Assembly: GCA_904420215.1 (NCBI GenBank)
Contig: CAJFUR010000124.1
Coordinates: forward strand, 1-53,653
DNA from: an uncultured Eggerthellaceae bacterium
GTDB lineage: Bacteria > Actinomycetota > Coriobacteriia > Coriobacteriales > Eggerthellaceae
Length of the DNA: 53,653 bases
Reading direction: 5' to 3'
The notes beneath the pieces are model-generated. The model worked only from the letters and a program-made list of their open reading frames with translations. It ran no database searches and was not told the DNA's origin. Below, piece by piece: positions 2,273 to 51,439 of this stretch (the first letter of the stretch is position 1; each line of letters opens with the position of its first letter). The translations under genes were made by a program, and so were the position numbers.

Positions 2273-2446
2273 GTTCGCCACCTCTTTTCGCGCTGTCTCC
2301 TATACGACAAGGGCGGACCCACGCCCGCCCCTCCCGTCAATTGGCTTGCAAGTTCGCCTCGCCGGTTGCCGCATTTCGCCAACCCGTTTCGCCTCGCCGG
2401 TTGCCGTGCTTCGCAGGTTCGCCCGAAGCCGGCGAGGGCGCCCGCG

Positions 2447-2577
2447 GTGCCCGGAATTCGTGGGATTGCGAAGGCGACGCGCACCTCGTCGCACGGGCCT
2501 TCGCAACCCCGCGAAGGCCGAGTGCTGCGAGTGGCCGCAGCGTCGGCGCGTTCCGGCGGCCGCCAGGTCGCCGGAAC
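2447..2577 (-). repeat. Structured dispersed repeat, copy A (between grpE and dnaJ)
   Basis: A 131-base element related to 43809-43961 and 50051-50182, all in the same orientation. Read on the minus strand it begins 21 bases after the grpE stop with a 12-bp hairpin (2550-2577, loop TGGC, one wobble pair), then a GCTGCG/CGCAGC hairpin, then a hairpin closed by GCGAAGGC/GCCTTCGC, and ends with a block resembling ATCCCACGAATTCCGGGCAC. It lies inside the dnaK operon, so it is probably part of the transcript between grpE and dnaJ. The remainder of the 2273-2598 gap is GC-rich sequence with short GTTTCGCCTCGCCGGTTGCCG-like repeats and no gene. Confidence 0.75.
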
Positions 2578-2598: not shown

Positions 2599-3447
2599 CT
2601 ACTCCGCTTCTGCGGGCTTCTCGCGTTTCGGGCCGCCCGTGGTCACTGTCACCATGGCGGGCCGCAGGACCTTCGTTCCCAAGCGGTAACCTTTCTGGTA
2701 CACTTCGGCCACCGTTTCGTCGGGCACGCTGGCATCGTCCACCGTGGCCACGGCCTGCGACTCCAACGCGTCGAACGCCGCGCCTTGGGGGTCGATGACC
2801 TCGAGGCCGTCCTTCTTCAACACGTCGAGCAGCTTCGTGTGCACGGCCTGCACGCCGCCCAGAAGCCCCGTCTCGCCGTTGTTCGTGGCGTAGTCGATGG
2901 TGCGCTCGAAGTCGTCGATCACCGGCAGCAGGCTGGTGACCAGCTTCTCGGCCGCACGGGCCTTCTCGGCCTCGCGCTGCTCGGTGGTGCGGCGGCGGTA
3001 CGTGTCCCATTCCGCATGCAGGCGCATGAATTTGTCCTGCCATTCCGCTGCCTCGGCCTGCGCCGCCACCAGCGCTTCTGCCGCTGCGGCGGCAAGGGCG
3101 TCGGCGTCGATCTCCGCTTCGGCTTCGGCACCGGCACCGGCGGCTGCAGTGCCATCGGCGGCTGCGGCCCCTTCGGCTTCGCCAGGGCCGGGTTCTATCG
3201 CGTCGGCTTCCACAACCTGTTCCTTCTGGCCTGCAGAAGCCTTGCCGTCGGCAGCGCTCTGGGCAGGAGCGCCTTGGGCACCCGCGCCCTGCGTGCCGCC
3301 GGTGGCCGCAGCCGGCCCCGAAGGGCCAGCCGCGGCGGAGGAGTTGGCGCCAGACTCCGGAGAGGAGGGGGTTTTGGCAGAGCCGGCGCCCGGGTTGGTT
3401 TCAGAGGCGGAAGCGTCCGAGACGTGGTCTTTTTCGGGCTTCGCCAT
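2599..3447 (-). CDS. grpE: Nucleotide exchange factor GrpE
   Basis: A 282-residue protein that releases ADP from DnaK. The C-terminal half (from about residue 135) is a standard GrpE: a long helix (WQDKFMRLHAEWDTYRRRT), then LLPVIDDFERTIDYA, and the beta-wing segment VAEVYQKGYRLGTKVLRPAMV. The first 130 residues are an Ala/Gly/Glu-rich low-complexity extension much longer than the 40-60 residues usual in the family. The start at 3447 has GGAAG upstream, located in the 3' end of dnaK; only five bases separate the two genes, so they are co-transcribed and probably translationally coupled. Confidence 0.96.
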   Translation of the reverse strand: MAKPEKDHVSDASASETNPGAGSAKTPSSPESGANSSAAAGPSGPAAATGGTQGAGAQGAPAQSAADGKASAGQKEQVVEADAIEPGPGEAEGAAAADGTAAAGAGAEAEAEIDADALAAAAAEALVAAQAEAAEWQDKFMRLHAEWDTYRRRTTEQREAEKARAAEKLVTSLLPVIDDFERTIDYATNNGETGLLGGVQAVHTKLLDVLKKDGLEVIDPQGAAFDALESQAVATVDDASVPDETVAEVYQKGYRLGTKVLRPAMVTVTTGGPKREKPAEAE

Positions 3448-24258: not shown

Positions 24259-27200
24259 CTACGCCCCGCGCGGACGCTCCCAGCGCCTGCGGAGGCGGCG
24301 CATCGCGCCGGCGCCCGCAGCCGCCGAAAGCGCAGCCGCAACGCCCAGCAGCACGAAGACGGGCCCCTGGCCGTCGCCCGTCTTCGACAGCAGCGTCGCC
24401 GGGGGGATCCTCTCATTGGTTACCTGCAACACCAGTCCGTCGTCCACGATGGCGTAGCCCGCGCCCGCCTCCCCGGCAAGCGTCCCGTCTGGCCTGACCG
24501 TGAAGGTGTAGTCTTTCTCTATGAGCCGGTAGCCGTCGGGAGCCTTCTGCTCCGTGACCGTGTACGACTCTCCCGCAACCAGAGAGGCCAGCGTGGCCGT
24601 GCCGTCCTGCGCGCTCTCAAGCGCCTTTTCGGCCGCGCCGTCGGCGAACGTGCCCACCACCTTGAACTCGGCGCCGGAAAGCGCCTTGCCGTCCTCGGAC
24701 ACCTTGCGCAGCTCAACCTCGATGGCCGCATCCCTCACCGTAACCACCGCGGTTCCGTCCGCCTGATCGACGGACACGGCACCGCGCACGCCCTCCGGCG
24801 TCGCTTCGTCCACCGCCACCGTGCCGTCGTCGTGGACGCGCAACACCACATCGCCTAGAAGCTCGTAGCCGGCAGGAGCCTGCGTTTCCCGAATCAGGTA
24901 GCGCTCCCCCTCCGCGCTTCCCAGAAGCACGTAGTCTTGGAACAGCACGCCCGCATCGTCGGACGAGAACGTTTTTTCCACGTCCCCGTCGGGGAACCGG
25001 CCCTGCACGGCGAACTCGGCGCCCGCAAGCGCATTGCCTGCGGCGTCGCGCTTTATCAGCGAAACCCGAATCAGGTCGTCCTTCACGGAAACTACCGCCG
25101 TGCCGTCGGCGTCCTCCGAGGCCGTGTACAGCCCGCTGCCCTCCTTGCCCGCCACGCTGCCGCCCGCATCGGCTCCGACGAAGGACAGCGTGCCGTCGGC
25201 GTTGACCACAAACGTGGCCGACCCCGCCAGTTCGTGCCCTGCCGGGGCGAACACTTCGGAAATGGTATAGGATGCGCCTGCCACCAGCCAAGCGGCGTCG
25301 ATCTCCACCGCGCCGTCGGAGCCGCTCGTGAACGTTCTGGCTTCGGAGCCGTCGTGGGGAACGATCTCGAACACCGCGCCCGCCAAAGGCTCGCCGTCGC
25401 GGTTGGTCTTCATGATTCTTGCCTTGATGGGCGTGTCGGCCGCCGTCAGCGCAATGGCGCCTCCGTCTGCAATCTGGTATCCCGGCTGGCCGTCGGCCGC
25501 CTCCACGCTGTCGGCCGCCACCGTTATGGTGCCGTCTGCCGCCACCGCGAAGCCAAAGGAACCCGCCACTATTTCATGGCCGTCCGCCGCGCGCGCCTCG
25601 ACGACGGTGTACGTCTCGCCCGCCACCAGCAACGCCTCCAAGTTGACGAGGCCGCCACCGTCCGTGGTCAGGCGCTGCTCGGTGCTGCCGTCGGCGAACG
25701 CGCCCTTCACCACGAATTCGGCGCCCGCAAGCGGCGTTGCGTAATCGTCGGTGCTCACCTTCTGCAGCCCCACGACCACCGGCGTGTCCACGGCCCGCAC
25801 GGTGAACGTGTTGGCGTCGCTTTTCTCGTAGCCGTTCGGCACCACGCCCGTTGCCTCGAGGGCGCCGTCTTCGGCAACCCTGACGGAAAGCGTTCCGGCG
25901 ATGAGCTCGTAGCCTGCGGGCGCCGCCGTCTCCGCGATGGCGTACGTGGCGCCCACGCACAGCTGACCCTCCAGCGAGGCCGTGCCGTCCTCCCCCGTCG
26001 TCAGCCCCCTCGCCCCCGTCGTGCCGTCGGCGAACGCGCCCGCGCCCACAGGCGTCACCGTGAACCGCGCTCCGGGAAGCGGGGTTCCGTCCTCGGCCAC
26101 CTTTTCCACAGCAAGCCGCGTCGGGCTGTCGGCGGCAACCACCGTCACGCCGTCGGTGTCCACGCGGTATCCAACCATGTCCCCGACGGGAACCAGCGTG
26201 CCGTCGGCCCGCACGTCGAACGCAAACGTGCCAGCAATGCGCGTGTACCCGGCCGGCACGCCCGTCTCGGTCACCTGGTAGCGGTTGCCCGCAACCAGAC
26301 CTTCTATCAGAACCGCGCCGTCGGCGCCGGTTTCCACGCTCTTGCTCGCGGCGCCGTCGGCGAAGGCGCCCACCACGTCGAAGGCCACGCCGGACAGCGC
26401 CTTCGTCTCGTCGTTGGCGTCCACCTTCTTGACGAATGCCCGTATGGGCTCGTCGGCAAGGGAGACGGTGGCCGCATTGCCGTTCAGGGACCACGGGGCG
26501 GAAATGCCGTCGGCTGCCGTCAGAGAACCGTCTGCCTGCACCGTCACATGCAGCGTTCCGCCTGCCAACTCGTAGCCTGCGGGCGCCGCCGCCTCCGCGA
26601 TGGCATACGTGGCGCCCACGCACAGCTGGCCCTCCAGCGAGGCCGTGCCGTCCGCCCCCGTCGTCAGTTCCCTCGCGCCCGTCGCGCCGTCGGCGAACGC
26701 GCCCGCGCCCACCGGCGTCACCGTGAACCGCGCTCCGGGAAGGGTCTCCGTCCCGTCTTCGTTGGTTTTGCGCAGCACCAGGCGCGTGGGCTGGTTCTCC
26801 ACATCCTGCAGCACGGCCTCCGCCTCCACGGTGTCACGCGCGACAACGAACGCGGCGCTCGCTGCCGGCTCGTCGCCAACCTGCCCCGCGAAGCCGCCGG
26901 CCGGCGTCGTTTCCACAAAGCGGTACGTGCCCCACGGCAGGCCGGAAACGCGCAGCACGCCCGCCGCCGGCGCGGCGGAGGCGTCTTCTGCGGCGCTTCC
27001 TGCGGCGGCGTCGAACGCATACGCCTTCCCCGTGGCAAGGCCCGTCGCAACGTCCTCCCACGTGGCGTCGACGCGTTGCCGCTGCAGGGCGAACACCGCG
27101 CCGTCAAGCGCCGCGCCGTCGGCGGCGCTCTCCTTCCTGAACGACGCGCTGCCGGTCAGCCGCGTGTTCGCCAATCCCCCGTCCTGATCCACGTCGGCGC

Positions 27201-30200
27201 CTTCCACCACCGCCTCGATGGCGGCACGGTCGCCCGCATCGGCCAGGTCGAACTCCCCGTTGTGGTCTTCGTTTCCCAAGGAGAACGTTGCCTTGAAGCC
27301 CGCGTTCGCCACGTAGCCCTCGTTCGCCGTTTCCACCAGCTCGTAGCTCCCTTTGCCAGACAGCTCCAGAACCAGCATGCCTTCCGCATTCGTGCGCGGC
27401 GCCGCGACTGTGGGCGCGCCGCCGCCGGCCGGCGTGTACGTCAGGCGAAACTCCGTTTCCGAAATGCCCTCGCCCGATTCGGCATCGTACTTGAACAGCG
27501 TCACCGTCGCCTTGAAGGGGTCGTTCAGCAGCACGGAAGCCGGTTGGGAGCCCGGCTCTGCGGCGGCGTTGTCCCGCACCGTCACCGCATGCGCCTCGCC
27601 GTGGTTCGCCACGGCGTCGAGCGTGAAGGCGAACTTCGCCGCGTCGCCGTCGGGCAGATGGGCTGCGTCGGAAGTGCCCACTTCCAACAGGTAGTATGCA
27701 CCCGCCTGCAGGCCGTCCGACAGGACCGCTCGGCGCCCGTCGGTCTGACCCACCAGCGCTATGTCGCTGTCAGCCGAGGCGAACGACCCGTCGGCGCCAC
27801 TCGTCAGGCCCTGCGCCATCAGCTCGTCGCCGCCGCCTGCGGCGGTGCCCACGCGGTACAGGTCGAACGTCGCGCCCTGCACCGGGGAGGCCGCATCGTC
27901 CGCCAAAGCCTTCGCGAACTCGAAGTACCCGCGGAACACCGGATCGACGGCCGTCACGCACGCCACGCCGTCGTCCTGCGACACCGCCCCATCCACGCCC
28001 GAGGACACCGTGCCGTCGGCAGCCAAGGCGAATGGAACGTCGTCGGCCCGCACGTGGTCTTGCGGCACCGCGCCCGTCTCCCGCACCAGATAGTCGCCCG
28101 CCGCGAGCCCGACCACATACGTGGCCGCCCCGCCAGTCATGGGCGTCAGCTTCGCGGTGTCGGCCTGCCCGTTGCCCGTGCCGTTGGGCCACACCTCGCC
28201 CGTGGCCACGCCGGACGGGCTCGCCCACGTGGCCACCCGGCCCTGTGCGTCGCGCTGCCACACGGCGTAGGTGGTCCGCCCGTCGCGCGACATAACGGCC
28301 AACTCTATGCCGTCAAGCCGCTCACCCTGCACGCCCGCGGCGTCGGGGTCGGCATCCCAGTCGTTCACCTTGTCCAGCGTGAAGCGCGTGGCGGTGTTCG
28401 CAATGCCGTCGCCCGTCTGGTTGCCGTCGGCGCCCACCTGCGTGGAGCCGCCTGCGTAAACGGGGTAGAAACCGGGAATGCTGCCGGCGGTTTCGGAGGC
28501 GCGGTAGGTGTACGCGTTGCCGTCGCCGTCGGTTCTGGGCAGCCCGGAGTACGCCCACGTCCACATGCCGGCCGTCCCCTCGCTCCACGCCGGCTGCGGC
28601 ATCGTGCCGTCGGCAGTCCTCGCCTCCTCCCACTGCGCGTTCTGGTCGGCGGGGTCGTCCGTCGTGCGGTGCAGCACCATGGAGGGCGCCCTGTCAACAA
28701 CGCCGTCGCCGTTCTGGTCGAAGGCGGGCGCGAAGCCGGTTCCGTAATCCTCCCATGCCTTCGTGCCGCTCAGGCCTATGGTGTAGAGCGAGTTGACGTA
28801 AACCTGGTGGGCGCCGCCTGCCGCCACGGCCTGGCCGCTGTCGCCCGCCACCAAGGCGTCGCCCTCGTCAAGCGGCGTTTCCGCAAGGGGGTTCTCGACG
28901 TCGTAGCCCCCGGGAACCGCCTCCACTGCGCGGTAGCGGTACGCGTTGCCGTCCGCATCCTGCGCGGGAAGGTTCGCGAAGGTGGCCGCGTTGGAGCCGA
29001 ACGTCGCGTCCTGCGCGTCCATGCTGCCGGTGATGCTGGCCGTGACCACCCGGCCTTCCGCATCGGTCACCCAGTCCCACGTCGCCCCATTGTCCGACGA
29101 GCGCTGCAGCTTGTACGTCACCGACCAGCGCTCGTTGCGGTACTGGTCGTAAACGACGTCGCGCAGGCCCCATTCGTTGCCGTTGTCGTCCCATGCCTTC
29201 CGCACCGTCAGCTCCGTGTCGTCGAGAACATTCGTGATCAGCGTGCTGCTCGATGCGGCCAGCGAAGCGCTGCCCTCGTTGGCGTTCCACGTCGTGTGCT
29301 GCTGCCCGTTGTACGAGGCTGCCGTGTCGTACACAATGGACGCGCCCGTGTCGTTCGCCGGAGCGAACGTCGCCTCGTCGGCTCCCACCTTGGTTTCCAC
29401 CACGCGGTACTCCACTTCGTAGACGGCGCCAGCGGCGTCCTTGACGCGCACGGGCACGCTGTTCCACGTGTGGCTCCACGCGTTGTCTGCGGCAAGCGTC
29501 TGTTCCACGTTTGGAAAGCCGCTCGGCACTCCACCCACCAACCGGGCGAACACGTCGGCGGCAGACGCCCATGCGGAATAGCCGCCCTCCGCGGCGTTCA
29601 GCGCCTTGTAGCGCGCCTGGAGCTGGACTTCGACGCTCGTCGGGCGCAAGCCCCATGCGTCGTCGCCGTCTTCCCACGCCTTCCTCGCGACAACGGATCC
29701 TTTGAGGCGGTTGTTCAGGTTGCCGAACGCGCCTTCGTAGGAGCCTTCCGCTTCCGTGGCCTTGCCGCTGCCCGTTGCCGTGCCCACCTGCGTGCGGTAG
29801 TGCATGGTGCCGTCGGTCAGCGTCTCTGCAATGGTGTAGGTCCAGGCGCTGCCGTCGGGCGCCCACTGCTCCAAATTGGATATCGTGTACGTCCACGAGG
29901 CGACGTCCGCGCCCTTTTGCGTCCATTCCAAATAATTGTCTGCATCCGGATCGTTCGATTGCAGCGAAACGGGCTCTTCCTGGCCGCTGGCCGACGTGCG
30001 CGAGAGCGTCAGCTGGATGTCGCTGGGGCGCACGCCGAAGGCGTTGTTGTAGTCGGTCCACGTCTTGGCACCCGTCAGCTCCAGCGTGTCCGCCTCGTAG
30101 GCGTTCGCGAACGTGACGTCAACGGCCGTGTCGTACACGGGCGTGCCGTCGGCACCGGGCGTTGCCGCAACCACCATCGACGTGCCGTCGTCCTTCATGG

Positions 30201-33200
30201 CAGCCGGCGAGGCCACGCCCTCGTCGCCAACCGCGCCGGCGCCCAGCCCGGCCGCGCCCAGCGTCAGATCTCCCAGGCCCACCTGCGTGGCATAGCCGTC
30301 CATAGACGCCTCCACCACCCAGTAACGCCAGTACGTGCCGTTGGGGGCGTATACCTCCAGCTCCTCGAAGGTGTACGTCGCGTTGCTCCTCTCGGCTTCG
30401 GCCCGCCCGAATTCCTCGGCCGAAATGGTGCCCACCGCCACCCGCTCGGGGCTGCTCGGGCCGGCCTCGCCCTCGTACTGGCGATACAGAACGAATTCCA
30501 CGTCGGGGTACGCGTCGCCCGCATCCCGCCCGTCGAACAGCTTCTTCACCGTCAGCGAGCCTTTGGTTGCGTCGTAGGCGTTGTTGAGGTAGAACGAGCC
30601 GGTCTGCCCGTGGCGGATGCTGTACACCTGGCCCGCGGCGTCCAGGCCGGCGTCCTGCGCGAAGTTCACGCTTCCCACGTCGCTTGATTGCAGGTATCCC
30701 GGCGTGTCCAGCAGGCCCACCATCACCTCGCGCGCGCGGTACTGGTACAGGTTGCCGTGTTCGTCGAACGCCGGCAGCGTCTCGCCGGAGGGGCCATTGG
30801 AGTTGTCGCCCGGAGAGGCGATGGAATACGTGTAGCGGTTGCCGTCGCCCGGCGCCTGTTCCATGCGGGACGTCCACGCCACGGCCCCAACGCTGCCGTC
30901 CGCGTTCTCGGCCGGCACCCACGCGCCCGACGCGTCCCGTTCCACGTACAGGTCGGGCCATTCGTCGTCCGTCGCCAGCTTCCGCTGCAGGAACACCACG
31001 ATTTCGGGGATGTCGGCAGACTGCACGGAGCCCGGCAGGTTCGACCACAGCTTCGTGCCGTTGGCCACAAGGGTGCCCGTCAGCGAGTTGACAAACGTAC
31101 CGCCCGAACGCACGGCATAGGCCGTGCCGGCGCTGTCGTCGATGTTGGCGGCGTTGCCGCTTGCGACTTCGATGAGCTGCGGATCGGCTGGGTCGTGCGA
31201 GCCGGTCATCCGGCTGGCGGAAAACGTCACGTCGCCATAGCCCAGACTGGCACCGTCGTTCATGAACTCCTCAACGGCGTAGTAGGTGATCTCGTCGCCG
31301 TACCTGTCGTACTTCGGCAGGCCGTCGATCGTGCAAGACTGCAGGTACTGCGAGGCATCCAGCGGCGTGGGATTCGAAAGGCCGAAGGCGGATCCCCCTT
31401 CCCCGTCCGTGGCCGCACGCCACAGGTAATGGATGTAGCCGTCCACCGCCACCGGCTTCTCGTTCGTGGCCTTGCTCACCTGATACAGCGTGAGAGCGAT
31501 GTCGGGGCGCTGCAGCGCCTCGTTCACGTAAACGTCGTTCCACTCCTTGTAGAACGTCACTTCCGTCGTGGCCGTGCGCCGGTTGGCAACATGGTAGGTC
31601 TGCGTGTCGTGGAAGTGGATGGGGCCGATGACATAGTCGCCAGTGGTCGAGGATATCACGTAGTCGCCCTGTTCCTGCTGGTTGGCAAAGCGCTCTTCCA
31701 CCGTGTAGTGCACCACTTCGCCGTCGGAGGCTATGCCCTTGTACTTGGGCAGGCCGAAGAAGCCGTAGGTGGAGGTGTCGGAATCGGGGCTTACCGGCAC
31801 CACCAGCGCCATGCCGCCGTCTTCCACACGCGCGGAATCGAGCGGGGCGCCGTCCTGGTCGTACAGGGGTATCTTGTTGCCGCCCGCAAGCTGCGCATAG
31901 GCGTTCCCACCCTCCACGAAGAAGCGGGCCTCCGGGTCGTCCACCCTCAGCACCAGCTCCGCCGCAGGGCGCTCGTCGGGGGCCGCCGACCCGTCGATCC
32001 ATTCCTTTTCCACCGTGAGGTCTATCAGGCCGATGCGGCGGTTGTTCACCGTCAGGGTCTGCTCCCCGAAGGGGCCCGCGGCTTCGGCGGCGTACGTCAC
32101 TTCATATGCGTGCTCATGCGTGGCCACGCGTTCCAAGTCGTTGGTCCAGCCGGCGTTCACCCAGTCCTCGTGGCCCAGCCCCGCCGCCACGGCCTCGTCG
32201 CGCGTGAACACCTCGAAGCTTTCGCTTCCGTCGAGGGCGTCGAGGCGCGTTTCCTCGATGACGATGTCGTCCGTAGTCAGGCCGTCCACGGGAACCACCA
32301 GTTCGTAGAACCATGCGTTGGCTTCGGACAACGCTATGTCCGCCCTGATGACTTCGCCGGCGCGGTAGCGGAGGCTGCCGTCGCGCGCCGTCAGGTCGCG
32401 GGCCGCGCGCACGGTGACGTAGCAGATCAGCCGGTGCGCCGAGTCGTCGCCGTCCGTCCACTCCTTCAGCAGGTGGAAGTCGGTGCCCTCGCCCGGGCCA
32501 TAGGAGTTCGTGATCGTGGTCAGGTGGTTTTCGGCGTCGTAGACGCGGTCGCTGTCCCATCCTGCCGGCTCGCTTTCCACCACGCGGTAAACGTACTTGG
32601 CCCCCGTGGCGGAATACTGCGGCAGACCCGTGATCTCTAGGTAGTACGGGCTCGTTTCCTGCGCGGCGGCAGGCCCCGACCCCCCATTGCCCTGAATGCG
32701 GTCGTCGAACGGCGTCGCTTCGGCATCGGCCTTGCCGTCGAGCACGAATTCCCCCACAAGCGTGGTGTTCTGGTACACGCGCACGGTCACCGTGTCGGTG
32801 CGGGCTTGGTCGGGCTGCTGGCGCGCGTAGGTGCCGTCGGGTTGTTCCCACAGCTTCTCCACGTTCTCGTGCGTCGCATTGTCGAACGAGTTGACAATGG
32901 TGCCGTCCTCGCCCATGAAAGACGTGAAGCGCACCGGCTCGGCCGCGTCGGCCGAACTCTCCCGCGCATGCAAGTACAGCGTGAACTCGGCCGCGTTTGC
33001 CTCCTCGTCGCGTTCGAACTGTGTCTCGTCGGCCCCGCGGCCTTCCTGCACCACGTCCGTCTCCACCCAGCGGTAGGCTATCTCGTATCCGTCGTCGTCG
33101 TATTTAGGATACGTTCCCGCTATCTCCTGCGTGAGCGTTTCGGCATTGAATCCCTCTATGGCCTGCGTGACGGGTGCTCCCTCGGCGTCAAGAGCGGGCG

Positions 33201-35975
33201 TCCACGCGCCGGTTTCCCGGTCGCGGCGCTGGAGCGTGAAGACGCACCGCACGTTTTGCAACTGATCCTGAAACGCGGCCACCGACCAGGTTTTCATCTG
33301 CCTGACCTGCTTCGTTCCCGAAAGGTGGTTTTCCACCGTGCCGCCGTTGTAGGTCAGGTGGTCGTTCGCGGGGCGCGTCCACGCGTCGGCCGTCGAGTTC
33401 GGGTCGCGGTTCTGGTCGGTGTAGCCTATCGTGGCGTCGGCCGCAACGTTGTAGTAGTTGGGAGCCGTGCCGTCGAACTCCACCGTGTAGTTCGCCACTG
33501 CAGTGTCCTCGCGCACGCCGTAGACGAAGGGATAGCCGTCGGAGTCGTATTTGTCCAAGGCGAGGCCGGGATACTGCTCCTTCAGCAGCGCCCCCAAGTC
33601 AACGCGACCGTTCTCGTCGGCGTCTTCGGGAGTGGCAACCAGCGTGATGAAGCTGCCGTCGGCGGCCCGCACCTGCGAGGCGTGATCGACGGAGCCGGGG
33701 GTGGAACCATCGGAGTAGCGCCACAGCGAGAACGACACTTCGGTGCGCAAGGCGGCGTTCTTTCCGTCGAACCACTGCTTGTAAGCCGCGAACTCCGTGG
33801 TGCCCGTGTGCGTGAACACAACGGTGCCGCCCGTGTAGGCGGCATCCACCACTGCGCCATGGTTGACCGATGCGGAATTGTCGTACGCGGCGGCGTAGTA
33901 GTCGTCGTCCGCCACGAAGTCGCGGTACACGATGCGGTACTCGATGGGCTCCCCCGCCACGGTGTAGCGGGGCAGGCTGGCCGAAAGCGTTCCCGAACAC
34001 GAGCCTTCGTCGGGAAGCCAGCCGAACGCCCCGCCGATGCTTGCCTGGGCCTGCCCGTTGCCGCCGCCAACCATGAGGTCGTCGAGGGCATAGGTGGCCT
34101 TGACCTCGTTGTTCACCACAACGTCGATGTACAGGTAGCCGCTCGTGCTGCCGCCCAGCTCCTCCAGCGTGTCGTCGCCCACCTTGCCCACGATGCGAAA
34201 CGACTCCTCGGAGAGCAGCTGCAGATACTGCGTGTCCGGCGCGCCTTCGCCGTAAGACGCGGCGTTGCGCAGGTAGCCGTAGCCGGCATAGTCTGCCATG
34301 TCGGTCATCGACCACTCGATGCGGTAGGAGGCGTCCGTGGAAACGTACACGGGGTTGCCCGTGTCGGGGTCGTAGATCAGCCCGTTGTCGTCCTCGTCCT
34401 GCGCCCACGTGGTCTGCACCACCGTGGCGGGCAAGGCGTCTGCCGTGGAAACGTACGTGTTGACCGCAGTCTGGCGCGTTCCCGCCGAAGGGGCGGCGTC
34501 CATACCCAGGTACTTCTTCACGTTCTCGGGCGTTGCCGGAAGGTCCTTCGCCTCCGTGCCGCCATCGGAAATGATGAGGCCGTCCTCGTCCACGTGCATC
34601 ACGTTGCCGTCGGCGTCGTAGAGCGTGAACGTCAACGTGGGCGAGACGGCGTCCGTCGATGGGCGCGAACCGATGTTGTTGTCCGCCCATTGGGTGACCA
34701 CCTGCTTGGACGTGGACGCCGTGCCGGGCTTGCGCGTGGGCGCGGGAGGCTCGCCCGCACGCGCAGGCGACACGAGCGCGCCCAGCGCCGCAACCAGCTT
34801 GTCCACCCGCGCCTTGTCGGCGGCGTCGGGCGATGCGGCAACGGCATCGGCGCCTTGGGCATCCGAAGGAAGGGCGTTGCCCGAAAGCCCCCAAAGGGCC
34901 AGCACCTCTGCACGCGAGGGCACGCCAAGCACAACCGTGCGCGCCGTGCCGTCTTCGGCCGTCTGCACGACCCAGTCGATCTGGGACGCCTCGTCCTGCA
35001 CCAGCGACGCGTCCAGAAGCACGGGAAGCGATGCCGTCCCAAGGGGCGCGGAAACGGGTGCGGAAGCATCAGAGGCCGCGCGGGCGTTCTCGCCCGATGC
35101 ACCGGCGTCGGAGGCGTCATCGGCAGCAGCGTCGGAGGCGTCGCCGGCGGCAACGCCCTCCCCGGACGCCTGCCTCTGGCGAACGAGGTCCGCGGCGGCA
35201 TCAGTCAGAGTGAATCTGACGCCCCCCCCCCGGCGACTATTTCGGCGTGCGCAACCTGCACGCCCGTGGATGCCTCGCAAACCTCGAAGGAGCCTTCCGC
35301 GCCCGCAGCGGAAACGCCCTCGGGCAACATGACTTGGAAGTAGTCGCCCGCTTGGACGCCCTGCCCTTCGGGAATCGGCCCGAAGTCGAACGACACCTCG
35401 AGATCCGCCGGTATGGCTTCGGGAAGCGCCACGCTCTGGCCGGGCGCGGCGGCTTCGCCGGAAGCAGAGATCGCGGCTTTCGACCCATCGGCAGGAGATG
35501 CGGCCTCCTGCGCTGCCGCGGCGCCCTGCAGCGCAGTGGGGCACTCCGGCGAAATTTCCAGAGATCCGTCGAAGGACAGGGCGTCCACGACGCCCGACCA
35601 GTCCCTTGGCGCGCGTTCGCCTTCCCCACCTTCCCCGTCGGCGGAAGCAGACGGGGAACCGGCCACATCCAACCTCTCAACGGGAAGTTGAGCATCAACC
35701 TCTCCCTGCAGCCCGCTGCCCAAGCCCTGCGCGCCGGAAGCCTTCCCGCCCTCGCCGTCTTGGGAGTAGGTCGGAAGCGCATTGGAGTCCTCTTCCGGCG
35801 AGGGCGCGCACGTGGGCTGCGCAGCGGGCGCCCCGCAAGGATCACCCTCGTCCGAGGAGCTTGCATACGCCGCCACCGAAACGGGCATCATGGTTGCCAC
35901 CAGCATGAACGCCATGAACACATTGAACAGTCGTTCGGACAGCGCATGCGGGGCCACTCGATGTGTTTTCTTCAT
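24259..35975 (-). CDS. Giant Cna_B-repeat sortase-anchored surface adhesin, switched out of frame by a poly-G tract
   Basis: Read with one extra G (or two fewer) in the ten-base tract at 35222-35231, this encodes about 3,905 residues. As sequenced, translation from ATG 35975 (GAGAAGG upstream) stops at 35205 after 256 residues. Order: signal peptide (ERLFNVFMAFMLVATMMPVSVAAYA), acidic disordered segment, SdrG-like head (from about residue 220, VSFDFGPIPEGQGVQAGDYF), then about twelve Cna_B domains starting with K-W strands (VEKEWIDG, VRKAWDDNG, TGAKTWTDY, GTKAWEDYG), then about eleven SpaA-type domains (KVSEDGKALSGAEF, ending in ETQAPAGYEL-like motifs with isopeptide Glu), and a sorting signal LLSKTGD, hydrophobic helix and RRLRRRWERPR tail. 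No sortase gene is adjacent. It likely mediates host or mucus attachment. Confidence 0.88.
25906..26079 (-). repeat. Near-identical internal duplication in the adhesin, copy 1
   Basis: 174 bases matching 26569-26742, offset by exactly 663 bases (221 codons), with roughly ten differences. They encode the LPGARFTVTPVGAGAFADG through YAIAE-AAPAGYEL part of two SpaA-type domains separated by one different domain. Confidence 0.85.
26569..26742 (-). repeat. Near-identical internal duplication in the adhesin, copy 2
   Basis: Partner of 25906-26079. Recombination between the two direct copies would delete or duplicate 663 bases and keep the frame, changing the number of domains by two. Confidence 0.85.
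35222..35231 (-). repeat. Ten-base poly-G tract in the adhesin gene (phase-variation switch candidate)
   Basis: Ten G on the coding strand after the codons for HAEIVA. Eight or eleven G join the signal-peptide frame to the long repeat frame (GGGVRFTLTDAAADLV); ten G leads to a stop within six codons. Confidence 0.85.
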
Positions 35976-43254: not shown

Positions 43255-43464
43255 GATTGATCCTCCTTAAGAGACCCTTTCAGCAAAGCAGTACGGCTAT
43301 TCTAGCGAAAAAGCGCGCCTGACCACCGTCTTTCACAGGAAAACCCGCGGAACGCAACCGTCCCGTCGCCCACCTTCCCACCCATGTCCCCCCACGAGAA
43401 AACCGAGCAGAAGGAAGCAAGGGAAACCATGCCGCCAAGCAAGCAAAGGAAAAGCTGCGCGAAA

Positions 43465-43570
43465 GTGGCACCAGATGCGACTCTCGTGGCGCTGAATTGC
43501 GGGTTAGTGGCATCGGATACGGCTCTCGTAACATCGGATTGCGGTTTAGTGGCACCGGATTGCGATTTTC
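43465..43570. repeat. 21-bp degenerate tandem repeat array (five units)
   Basis: Five units beginning GTGGCACCAGATGCG-like at 43465, 43486, 43507, 43528 and 43549, each 21 bases (the last 22), related to GTGGCACCGGATTGCGATTTTC. A further direct partial copy lies at 43654-43680 and an inverted copy at 43696-43719. The 21-base period keeps all three frames open on both strands, but no ribosome site or gene is evident. Confidence 0.75.
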
Positions 43571-43625: not shown

Positions 43626-43808
43626 AAAGTTTTCCCAGTTCGCCGGTTTTGCCAATGGCGCCGGACTGCGATTTTCGTGCATGCGGGTGACCAACATCGC
43701 AATCCGGTGCCACTTTCGCAAGGTATCGCCCTGCAGGCCGGAAATCCCATCCCATAAGTTGAACGATCGCGTACAGGTTGGCGCAACGAATCGACAAGGG
43801 CGCCTGCA

Positions 43809-43961
43809 GCACCCGAGATTCGCAGGGTGGCGAAGGCGACCGCGCTCGACATCGGGACCGTCAAGGACAGCCGCGCGCAAGCCTCCGGCATCGCGCGAAG
43901 GTCGGGTGCCGCAGGCGGCCACAGCGTCGGCTCGTTGCGCCGTTCGGCAGAACGGCGCAAC
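43809..43961 (-). repeat. Structured dispersed repeat, copy B (after the TM2 gene)
   Basis: 153 bases, same family and orientation as 2447-2577 and 50051-50182. On the minus strand it starts 18 bases after the TM2 stop with a perfect 12-bp hairpin (43934-43961, GTTGCGCCGTTC / GAACGGCGCAAC, loop TGCC), then the conserved GCCGACGCTG block and CCTTCGCGCGATGCC, then a longer third stem-loop. The 43255-43979 gap otherwise holds the terminator and the 21-bp array. Confidence 0.8.
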
Positions 43962-43979: not shown

Positions 43980-45428
43980 TCAGAACCACTCGCGTTTGTT
44001 GAAGACGTAGACTTGCTCGAAGTCGGTTTGCGACTTGGTCAGGTAGAGCACGCCTTCGATGATGGCGATGACCCAGATGACCGCGCCTGCAAGGCCGAAC
44101 GTGAACAGGCTGCCCAGTATGGTGACGGCAAGCATGATGAAGCCGGGGGTGTTGTATCCCAAGTAGAACTTGTGAATGCCCAAACAACCCAGGAAGATGG
44201 CCAACAGGCCAGCCGCCACGTGGTCTTTCGACGCCGTCACGGGCGCTTGGTAGGACGGCTGCGCGTAGGCGTAGGGATTCGCCTGTTGATAGGGCTGGTA
44301 GGTATAGGTCGGCTGCTGCGTGGGCTGCGACGGCGGCACCGCGCCCGGCCCCGCATGGGGCGTCTGCGCATACGAGGGCGGCACGTAGCCTGCCGTCGGC
44401 GCGGGGTTGCCGGGTGCGGCCGAAGCCGACGCCGCGCTGCCAGCCATGGGAGGAACCGGAGCGGGACCGCCCGCGGAAACGGGACCGTCCGTCGGCGCGG
44501 GAGTTCCCGCCATAGGCGCGCCGCCACTGCCCGCCGGCGCGGGGCCTCCCGGCGCCGATGCGGGATCCGGCGCCGGCCACGCGGCACCCGCTGACCCGAA
44601 GGGTTGCCCCTGCGGAGTGTAGTGCGAGACCTGCCCATGCGCGAAATACGACCCGGCGGCGCTTTCCGCAGGCTGCGACCAGGAAGCGCCACCCGCAGCG
44701 TAAGGCGCGTCGGACGCCGAAACCGCGTCTGTGCCGCCCGCGCGGACACCCTCCACCGCCGACACCGACTGCGAAGCGGGTTCCTCGCCCGTCGCCGCTT
44801 CCCCCGCATCCGAAAACGGCGTGTACACCGGCTCCCGCCCCGCGTCGGCACCATTGGCATTGGCGGCACCGTCGGCATCGGTGGACGCCGCTTCTTCAGC
44901 GTCCACGCCCGCAGACGAGGCCTCCATCTTCGCCCTGGCGGCTTCATATCTTTCCTGCGCGGCTTTGAGCTGGGCTTCCGCTGCAGCCATTTCGTCAAGC
45001 AGGCGCTGGGGGTCGGTCAGGGGCGCATCCGCGCCACCCGGCAAGTCGGCGTCCTGCGCCTCTGCAGCAGTCACAGCATCTTCGAATGCAACCTTGGCCG
45101 CGACAACGGCATCGGCTTCTTCCTCTGTCCCCACCCCGTCGGCCGACGCGTTTGCGGGGGCGCCGTCATCGAAGAGGGCATCCGCGGCAAAGCTTTCCGT
45201 TGGAGCGTCCTCCGTCTCGCCCGAAACGCGCTCCGGCGCGTCCGAAGCGTCCACCGCCGCCTCGCCGCCGGAAACGTCCGCATCGCCAGCGGGAACTTCC
45301 GCCTGTTCGGCCGCCGCCTCGCCGCACGCGGCGCCTTCGTCGGCTGGTTGCACGTCGATGATGCCGTCCGGAGCCTTTGCGTCCCCGTCCTTTTTCGCAG
45401 CGTCGTTTCCCGACTCGATAGTGATCAT
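43980..45428 (-). CDS. TM2-domain membrane protein with very long disordered N-terminal region
   Basis: 482 residues. About 395 N-terminal residues are Ala/Glu/Asp-rich, then Pro/Gly/Ser/Gln/Tyr-rich (PTQQPTYTYQPYQQANPYAYAQPSY), without known domains. The last 85 residues form a TM2 domain: two helices around GCLGIHKFYLGYNTPG with FGLAGAVIWVIAIIEGVLYL. TM2 proteins are common in bacteria, but their function is not settled. GAGAGGCG precedes ATG 45428. A structured repeat and a terminator follow the stop. Confidence 0.85.
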   Translation of the reverse strand: MITIESGNDAAKKDGDAKAPDGIIDVQPADEGAACGEAAAEQAEVPAGDADVSGGEAAVDASDAPERVSGETEDAPTESFAADALFDDGAPANASADGVGTEEEADAVVAAKVAFEDAVTAAEAQDADLPGGADAPLTDPQRLLDEMAAAEAQLKAAQERYEAARAKMEASSAGVDAEEAASTDADGAANANGADAGREPVYTPFSDAGEAATGEEPASQSVSAVEGVRAGGTDAVSASDAPYAAGGASWSQPAESAAGSYFAHGQVSHYTPQGQPFGSAGAAWPAPDPASAPGGPAPAGSGGAPMAGTPAPTDGPVSAGGPAPVPPMAGSAASASAAPGNPAPTAGYVPPSYAQTPHAGPGAVPPSQPTQQPTYTYQPYQQANPYAYAQPSYQAPVTASKDHVAAGLLAIFLGCLGIHKFYLGYNTPGFIMLAVTILGSLFTFGLAGAVIWVIAIIEGVLYLTKSQTDFEQVYVFNKREWF

Positions 45429-45739
45429 GGTTCGCCTCTCTCGCGATAGAAACAAGCACGGTTATCATATCCACCTGCGCATGCGCCAAAAGAAAACGTC
45501 ACAGTATCGTAAACCACCTGAAGGTTTTGCGAACGTGCCGCGCCGGAGAGCAGGCACTGGAAGGTGAGCCGCCGCCAAGAAACAAGCTGCCGGAAGGGGC
45601 AAGTCGCCGAAAAGCGAGCCGCTGCCGGAGGGCAGATCGCAACCAAGGAGCAACCGCTGCCGGAGGGCGAGCCGCCACCAGCGGCAAACCGCCAGAAGCC
45701 GAACCGCCGGAGGGGCATCCCGAAACCAGCGCACGCGCG
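45429..45739. repeat. Intergenic region with degenerate ~34-bp tandem repeats
   Basis: Between about 45560 and 45715 four to five imperfect units of 32-35 bases recur, sharing GCTGCCGGAGGGC preceded by CAACC/GAGCCGC. The sequence nearest the TM2 gene (45440-45530) is A/T-richer and probably holds its promoter. No gene found. Confidence 0.6.
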
Positions 45740-49948: not shown

Positions 49949-50050
49949 GTCGTTTCCTTTCAACAAAAGCGGCCCCGCACGTCCGCATTCGCGTTTTGTT
50001 CCAACACCAACAGCCCCACATTCGCACCAACGTCAGCGAGGGTTTCCGCA

Positions 50051-50182
50051 GTGCCCAAGATTCGTGGGATGGTGAAGGCGAAGCGTACTTCAGGTACGCG
50101 AGCCTTCGGCATCGCGCGAAGGTTGGGTGCTGCGGGAAGCCGCAGCGTCGGCTTGTTTCGCCGGCTGGCAAGCCGACGAAAC
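50051..50182 (-). repeat. Structured dispersed repeat, copy C (overlaps the 3' end of the aminotransferase)
   Basis: 132 bases of the same family as 2447-2577 and 43809-43961. On the minus strand: 12-bp hairpin (50155-50182, GTTTCGTCGGCT / AGCCGGCGAAAC, one mismatch, loop TGCC), hairpin GCTGCGG/CCGCAGC, then GAAGGC-GCGTAC / GTACGC-GCCTTC, ending at GTGCCC (plus-strand sense). The aminotransferase frame reads through the first two hairpins and stops in the third at 50090. Confidence 0.8.
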
Positions 50183-51439
50183 CCCAATGGCACCGGCATC
50201 GATGAAAGCCCGGTACAGCTCCAGCCGTTCGTTGATGACGTTCGCCAGGCGCTTGACGGCCTCGGTGAGGTTTTCGGGGCTTTCGTAGCAAAACGCTATG
50301 CGCATGCAGTTCTTGCCCGCCGTGCCGCCGGGGAAGAAGCCGTCGCCGGGGGTGTAGGTCACCCCGTGCTCCAGCGCCACCGAAAGCATCGACGCCGTGT
50401 CCACGTAATCGGGCAGCGTCACCCACACGAAGAAGCCGCCCTCGGGGCGCGTCCATGTGGCCTCGGCGGGAAAGTACTCGTCGAGCGCCGCCAGCATGGC
50501 GTCGCGACGCGTGCGGTAGGTGCTCACGAACTTCTGTAGCGTCTTCTGCCAAGGCGTGTCCGTGAAGTAGTGCTCCACCACCACTTGGTTGAACGCGCTT
50601 CCGCACAGGTCGGTGCCCTGTTTCACCAAGTTGATGCGCGCCAGAATGCTTTTTGGCGCGACGATCCAGCCCGTGCGCAACCCCGGCGCGAACACCTTCG
50701 ACACCGTGCCCAAATACACCACGTCGTCGGAAAGCGCCTTGAGTGGCAGCACGTGGCCGCCTTCGTAGCGCAAGCGCCCGTACGGGTCGTCCTCCACCAC
50801 GATGAAGCCGTATTCGTCGGCCAGTTCCAAAAGGCGCTTGCGGCGGGCGGGCACCATGGTCACGCCGCCGGGGTTCTGGAAGTTGGGGATGGTGTAGAGG
50901 AACTTGAGGCGCGGGTTGCCCTTGCCGATGCGCCCGAGCTCTTCTTCCAGCAAGTCCATGCGCATGCCCTCGTCGTCGAAGGGAATGCAGCGGATGTCCG
51001 GCTCGTAGGCGGAAAACGCCTGCAGCGCGCCCAAGTACGTGGGGCCTTCCGCCAGCACGATGTCGCCGGGGTTCACGAAGGTTTTCGCCAGAAGGTCAAG
51101 CGCTTCCTGCGCGCCCGTGGTGATCATGACGTTTTCAGGCTTCGCCCGCACGCCGATGTCGCGCATGAGGTCGCAGAAGACCCGCTTCGTTTCCACCCGC
51201 CCGTCGGTGGAACCGTACTGCAGCGCCACCGCGCGCTCGTCGTCGCAGGCCGCGCGCGTGGCCTTGCGGATGGCCGCGTGGGGCAGAAGCGACACGTCGG
51301 GCATGCCGCCGGAAAGCGAGATGATGTTGGGGTTCGAGGCCGCCGAGAACAAGTCGCGCACGGCGGAGGAGCGCATTTTCAAAACGCGCTCGGCAACTTT
51401 GTCGCCCGTCTGGTCGAATATGAGATGCGCCGTTGACAT
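50090..51439 (-). CDS. PLP-dependent aminotransferase (class I/II, LysN/2-aminoadipate type)
   Basis: 449 residues. Typical fold type I aminotransferase: NIISLSGGMPDVSLLP, GAQEALDLLAKTFVNPGD, YTIPNFQNPGGVTM, VVEDDPYGRLRY, the PLP lysine in LGTVSKVFAPGLRTGW, and GFFVWVTLP near the C-terminus. It transfers amino groups between an amino acid (often aromatic or aminoadipate) and 2-oxoglutarate. The last 25-30 residues (PAKQADAAASRSTQPSRDAEGSRT) are encoded inside the structured repeat, so the native C-terminus was probably shorter. The ribosome site at 51439 (AGGAAA) is close to the start. Next gene starts five bases upstream of it. Confidence 0.9.
   Translation of the reverse strand: MSTAHLIFDQTGDKVAERVLKMRSSAVRDLFSAASNPNIISLSGGMPDVSLLPHAAIRKATRAACDDERAVALQYGSTDGRVETKRVFCDLMRDIGVRAKPENVMITTGAQEALDLLAKTFVNPGDIVLAEGPTYLGALQAFSAYEPDIRCIPFDDEGMRMDLLEEELGRIGKGNPRLKFLYTIPNFQNPGGVTMVPARRKRLLELADEYGFIVVEDDPYGRLRYEGGHVLPLKALSDDVVYLGTVSKVFAPGLRTGWIVAPKSILARINLVKQGTDLCGSAFNQVVVEHYFTDTPWQKTLQKFVSTYRTRRDAMLAALDEYFPAEATWTRPEGGFFVWVTLPDYVDTASMLSVALEHGVTYTPGDGFFPGGTAGKNCMRIAFCYESPENLTEAVKRLANVINERLELYRAFIDAGAIGVSSACQPAKQADAAASRSTQPSRDAEGSRT

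Follow-up and report, generated by a model that had tools for sequence, protein, structure and literature searches.

A family of palindromic repeats anchored at stop codons in gut Coriobacteriales, probably a mobile DNA element

Results

Three copies of a structured repeat next to gene ends

The window, as we call the whole stretch of 53,653 nucleotides from an uncultured Eggerthellaceae bacterium analysed here, carries three copies (A, B and C) of a structured repeat. A previous sequence-only reading had described three minus-strand copies with common blocks and a co-varying 12-bp hairpin, all of which are present. Its placement of the copies was right but its bounds were too narrow: matches to the covariance model R1, based on an alignment of 36 copies that resolves into a hairpin 1 and one long hairpin 2, show that each copy is ~19 nt longer than drawn and has, in addition, a tail of ~18 nt. 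In window coordinates, the features are:

2410–2577, minus strand: copy A, full element with tail, between grpE and dnaJ (R1 match 2428–2577, 117 bits; tail from the sequence; grpE and dnaJ by Pfam)
2550–2577, minus strand: hairpin 1 of copy A
2428–2547, minus strand: box 1, hairpin 2 and box 2 of copy A
2599–3447, minus strand: grpE, 5' neighbour of copy A, its stop 21 nt ahead of the element (Pfam GrpE, 8e-41)
43772–43961, minus strand: copy B, full element with tail, 3' of a TM2-domain gene (R1 match 43790–43961, 112.5 bits)
43934–43961, minus strand: hairpin 1 of copy B
43980–45455, minus strand: TM2-domain gene, 5' neighbour of copy B, its stop 18 nt ahead of the element (Pfam TM2, 4e-12)
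50014–50182, minus strand: copy C, full element with tail, joined to the 3' end of an aminotransferase ORF (R1 match 50032–50182, 160.1 bits)
50155–50182, minus strand: hairpin 1 of copy C
50090–51439, minus strand: aminotransferase ORF, its last codons being element sequence (Pfam)

The two stop distances listed here had been read correctly, and copy C is indeed fused to its gene: the aminotransferase ORF stops 93 nt into the element, which lies at the identical place in genomes G001 and G121. By contrast, the three hairpins claimed for each copy reduce to two, since GCGTAC/GTACGC is the apical tip of one long hairpin, a tip that is ~22 nt larger in copy B. Nor is it the local pairing GCTGCGG/CCGCAGC that is conserved: the covariation of the CCGCAG arm is with a distant CTGCGG arm, for example in loci L033 (GGACGGCTGCAG/CTGCAGCCGTCC) and L045 (GAAGCGGCGAGG/CCTCGCCGCTTC).

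Two other features of the window were observed. A 42-bp/21-bp tandem repeat occupies positions 43464–43568, a few hundred bases downstream of copy B, and a minus-strand ORF of 3,761 residues (24259–35544), with seven SpaA prealbumin-like repeats and a Cna_B domain, codes for a giant surface adhesin or pilin-like protein.

Architecture and variants of the element

The element is palindromic, measures ~150–170 bases and, in gene sense, shows the order stop codon, 12-bp hairpin 1, box 1, long imperfect hairpin 2, box 2 and ~18-nt tail. Hairpin 1 has the arms GTTnCGnnGnnn and nnnCnnCGnAAC, starts with GTT and ends with AAC, and its loop starts with T. Box 1, with the invariant GACGCTGCG and given as CCGACGCTGCG, lies ~2 nt after it. 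Hairpin 2, of ~100 nt, contains internal loops and has mostly a CGAA tip, and box 2 (CTCGCTGAC) follows it directly; the tail falls into a few classes, commonly containing ACCTG. Conservation reaches 90–100% in the boxes and averages 82% (G121) and 70% (G186, a complete genome from another family of the order) in the paired columns; in loci L041 and L055 the arms of hairpin 2 are wholly different yet still paired. The alignment has no conserved GTAG beside hairpin 1, and no consistent attC R box could be seen by eye in the tail.

Short forms of ~57 nt lack hairpin 2, and four of them (L236, L241, L243 and L244) are consistent with the product expected of a deletion between CTGCGG repeats. Tandem copies also exist, the first copy ending mostly within the 5' arm of hairpin 2, as do decayed and internally deleted copies. 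In one subtype of hairpin 2, extra small hairpins (e.g. CGCCCGCTCGGGCG) are nested in the tip (L252; L078:442-668; L033 near 2995), which suggests modular insertion into the element itself. In L048 (genome G024; element near locus position 1501–1628) part of the 3' arm of hairpin 1 occurs twice (GACGGCCGACGAAACCGGCCGACGAAAC), which slippage or template switching may have left behind.

Covariation and distribution

The sequence-only reading had proposed a covariance model search and a check for significant covariation, and both support a dispersed structured repeat, with further copies genome-wide and in relatives and a covariation score far above that of shuffles. In the 36-copy alignment, 38 of 48 pairs show compensatory change with pairing kept, and the score is 0.513, against 0.158 ± 0.008 for shuffles and 0.06–0.11 when partners are slid. 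In G186, which took no part in model building, 93.4% of cells are paired, with a score of 0.557 versus 0.150, a figure biased upward because the alignment was fitted to R1. Strong covariation by itself does not prove a functional RNA.

The source draft genome (2.69 Mb, 85% complete) yielded 45 matches by blastn and 91 with R1, part of which are the reverse strand of the same palindrome; the full-length copies found with R1 number ~55. R1 detected 47 copies at >=60 bits in the complete relative G121 and 27 in G186, and ~25–60 copies per genome occur across many gut Coriobacteriales. Many copies are found in the Coriobacteriales families f1, f10 and f4, and two marginal single matches in f13; an even sample of 198 genomes of the phylum gave matches in f1 and f10 only. 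There was no well-supported occurrence outside the three families in the sampled genomes of the phylum, no match to Rfam at gathering or permissive thresholds, and none in phages, in plasmids or, for one exact pattern, in viral contigs, collections that may hold few Coriobacteria. The literature searched on repeats and RNA motifs of Eggerthella or Collinsella held nothing relevant and no description of this element family.

Placement relative to genes

In a census of 109 copies from three genomes, based on a gene model trained on G121, 62 copies start 0–25 nt after a sense stop codon, mostly 0–5 nt, and in 13 the stop of the preceding gene falls within the element. The position relative to stop codons, which had been suggested as a check, shows anchoring: 75 of the 109 begin at most 25 nt after, or contain, a sense stop. 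Another 12 start 26–130 nt after a stop, several with a short element in between, and 13 are read through in frame inside ORFs. For the remaining nine, no gene in sense orientation lies immediately upstream; two of these form the second copy of a tandem, three sit in antisense just ahead of a start codon and four occupy other intergenic positions. G121 has three more lower-scoring antisense copies facing start codons (judged by eye), two of them at genes that we take, by eye, to be hisF and purH. Distances to the downstream gene spread broadly, and separate terminators or RBSs follow the element at several loci.

Housekeeping, leading-strand genes are favoured. Family searches identified grpE, ffh, greA, htpG and genes of central metabolism upstream of the element, and from their C-termini we presume others, recognised by eye, to be pheS, rpoD and GAPDH. 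Along the G121 chromosome, 43 of 47 copies follow the leading strand versus ~74% of sampled genes. In G121 and G186 the strand of the element switches almost exactly at the borders of GC skew and gene direction, so that its orientation marks the direction of replication. Three further explanations of placement were rejected: replication-strand-specific insertion, as the near-perfect strand split in both genomes is mostly due to anchoring to genes that are themselves ~74% leading (G121), the excess being modest; a choice of stop codon, TAG being already the commonest stop; and readthrough of the stop into the element, as the 0–5 nt spacings are mixed and keep no single frame.

In-frame copies and turnover at shared gene ends

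In the leucyl-tRNA synthetase (LeuRS) of the source genome the element accounts for 56 residues (122–177 of the query) that are absent from solved LeuRS and stand directly before the TTRPDT motif. DnaX carries one in-frame copy and HypF two, and further ones occur in ORFs carrying PriA, Mur ligase, RecQ, TsaD and YqeG domains. The two HypF copies are separate (L078, source genome contig C41, ORF 3–2126), the first being made larger by additional nested hairpins and having a GQPAAE-type repeat after it. All 13 in-frame copies of the census are in sense orientation. In the two genomes of family f1, the element is open in antisense frames no less often than in sense frames, so coding tolerance alone does not explain this restriction.

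At the 3' end of a gene that we take, by eye, to be nrdD, 50 loci were searched. Nine have an intact element, among them those of Gordonibacter pamelaeae, Rubneribacter and Aveggerthella; the one in Raoultibacter seems decayed, and many loci have none. The element has entered at two points, one codon after ...RVKH or 4–7 nt past the natural stop; filled and empty sites are too diverged to show target duplication. The congeneric genomes G121 and G137 both carry elements at the 3' ends of certain shared genes, these elements being 60–87% identical, close to the within-genome mean of 79%, whereas the flanking genes are 79–94% identical. Junctions differ between the two genomes at ADH, HtpG and MoaB. 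Vertical inheritance also occurs, as the in-frame YqeG copy is at the same position in both, with 87% identity. A sample of 25 copies from G121, whose most alike pair is 95% identical around a mean of 79%, does not prove a recent burst.

Pairing chemistry

Structured RNAs tolerate G-U much more than A-C pairs. In alignments A3–A5 of the element we counted 101 G-U against 125 A-C, whereas the stems of 15 tRNAs from the same genomes gave 14 against 2 (p 0.001 for the difference). Moreover, in 110 of 113 copies it is the antisense strand that has the better fold, with RNA as well as DNA parameters. The compensatory changes on which the sequence-only reading had based selection on RNA (or DNA) structure are real, but with this G-U to A-C ratio they do not prove selection on RNA. 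The lack of a G-U excess and the better antisense folding speak for upkeep of the palindrome at the DNA level and against selection acting on the transcript in sense, so that the covariation does not identify a sense-strand RNA. Template switching is reported to be able to create, maintain and correct the complementarity of hairpin arms (PMC8794818). Such upkeep leaves the conserved boxes unexplained, and these need a recognising enzyme or a function of each copy.

Discussion

Our analyses favour, with moderate confidence, a family of small non-autonomous mobile palindromic DNA of ~150–170 bp, working like Rickettsia palindromic elements (RPEs) or MITEs. We prefer this reading because dozens of copies are dispersed, some of them in frame in core proteins, and different elements occupy the same gene ends in sister species; because the covariation holds in G186 and the G-U/A-C ratio differs from that of tRNA; and because the nrdD site is found with the element present, decayed or absent. 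A trans-acting enzyme would recognise hairpin 1 and/or the boxes and insert copies, which would survive where they cause least harm, that is, outside the frame at a sense stop, rarely antisense at a start, or in phase within a frame. Their arms would be kept Watson-Crick largely by template switching or gene conversion rather than by selection on the sense mRNA. We found no transposase or autonomous parent for the family and no terminal inverted repeats, hairpin 1 standing at a single end with no repeat seen to match it at the other. The near-invariant boxes (90–100%) in divergent copies fit a function of each copy as well as they fit continuing mobility, and the sense-only orientation of the 13 copies inside ORFs counts against a mobile element shaped by coding tolerance alone. 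More tentatively, and in our opinion rather improbably, insertion itself might be aimed at translation stop sites or at the 3' ends of genes on the transcribed strand, which would account for the 0–5 nt spacing, the sense orientation also inside genes and the differing junctions in sister species; we know of no small mobile element with stop-site targeting.

The main rival to a mobile DNA family is a 3'-UTR RNA functional for the host, whose hairpins would serve in stabilising or processing the 3' end of the mRNA, or would influence termination, re-initiation or the stoichiometry within operons (e.g. grpE-dnaJ). We regard it as possible but doubtful. The anchoring of most copies to a sense stop, with broad downstream distances, agrees with such a role, as do the preference for housekeeping leading-strand genes, the near-invariance of the boxes and the terminators or RBSs of their own that several loci have after the element; the position would also support sense transcription downstream of the gene. 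Nevertheless, this role is difficult to reconcile with a G-U count not above that of A-C, with the better folding of the antisense strand, with copies read in frame within proteins and with frequent loss or replacement at the same gene. A purely 3'-UTR element, as proposed by the sequence-only reading, is contradicted by the 13 of 109 copies in frame within proteins and the few antisense ones at start codons.

A further alternative, which seems quite unlikely, is that the antisense strand is the active molecule, either as an antisense RNA or as a folded single-stranded DNA bound by a protein. Besides its better folding, its C(UUCG)G tip and a conserved internal loop giving tandem G-A pairs would suit such a molecule; however, A-C, equivalent to G-U on the antisense strand, barely exceeds G-U, so there is no clear wobble tolerance there either. 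REPIN-like repeats moved by a RAYT or other Y1 transposase, also put forward before, are highly improbable: the paired hairpins are dispersed outside frames and some relatives encode Y1 transposases, but no Y1_Tnp (PF01797) was found in the 85% complete source genome (G000), in the element-rich complete genomes G121, G117 and G179, or in G001, G028, G021 and G008, while some genomes free of the element, such as G103 and G115, have Y1 genes.

Among known systems, RPEs are dispersed, many-copy long stem-loops of ~105–146 bp, both intergenic and in frame in core genes (PMC2229807). The mobile family proposed here, likened to them by description, shares the many dispersed long stem-loop copies of ~100–170 bp and the in-frame copies (13/109; LeuRS, HypF, DnaX); it differs in being bipartite (two hairpins plus boxes), stop-anchored in one orientation and from another phylum. 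The Caulobacter CIR, with two long stem-loop arms and a linker, has similarly paired stem-loops but has not been found inside genes and carries a GANTC motif (PMC2229807). NEMIS/Correia and ERIC are MITEs of ~107–155 bp, co-transcribed with their neighbours and sometimes read in frame (PMC2229807), which are bounded by terminal inverted repeats and TA target duplications, whereas neither could be recognised in the present element. REPs, of 20–40 bp, bear a GTAG or CGTC tag next to the stem, and the CGTC families, likewise without dedicated transposase, were reported from five other phyla, the main text making no mention of Eggerthella, Slackia, Gordonibacter, Olsenella or Actinobacteria (PMC3733652). 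Like REPs and REPINs, our elements are palindromes outside ORFs, often dimers; unlike them, they reach ~150–170 bp, and their CGTC, on the antisense strand, is separated from the stem of hairpin 1 by a few nt. Integron attC sites fold, carry RYYYAAC/GTTRRRY ends and are served by an integrase; the GTT and AAC of hairpin 1 recall these ends, but by eye the tail shows no consistent R box.

Whatever its origin, the element is an abundant feature across an order of common gut bacteria (Gordonibacter, Rubneribacter, Aveggerthella and others). It adds segments to LeuRS, HypF and DnaX, sits between grpE and dnaJ, and offers a natural test case for telling compensatory change due to RNA selection from that due to DNA template switching.
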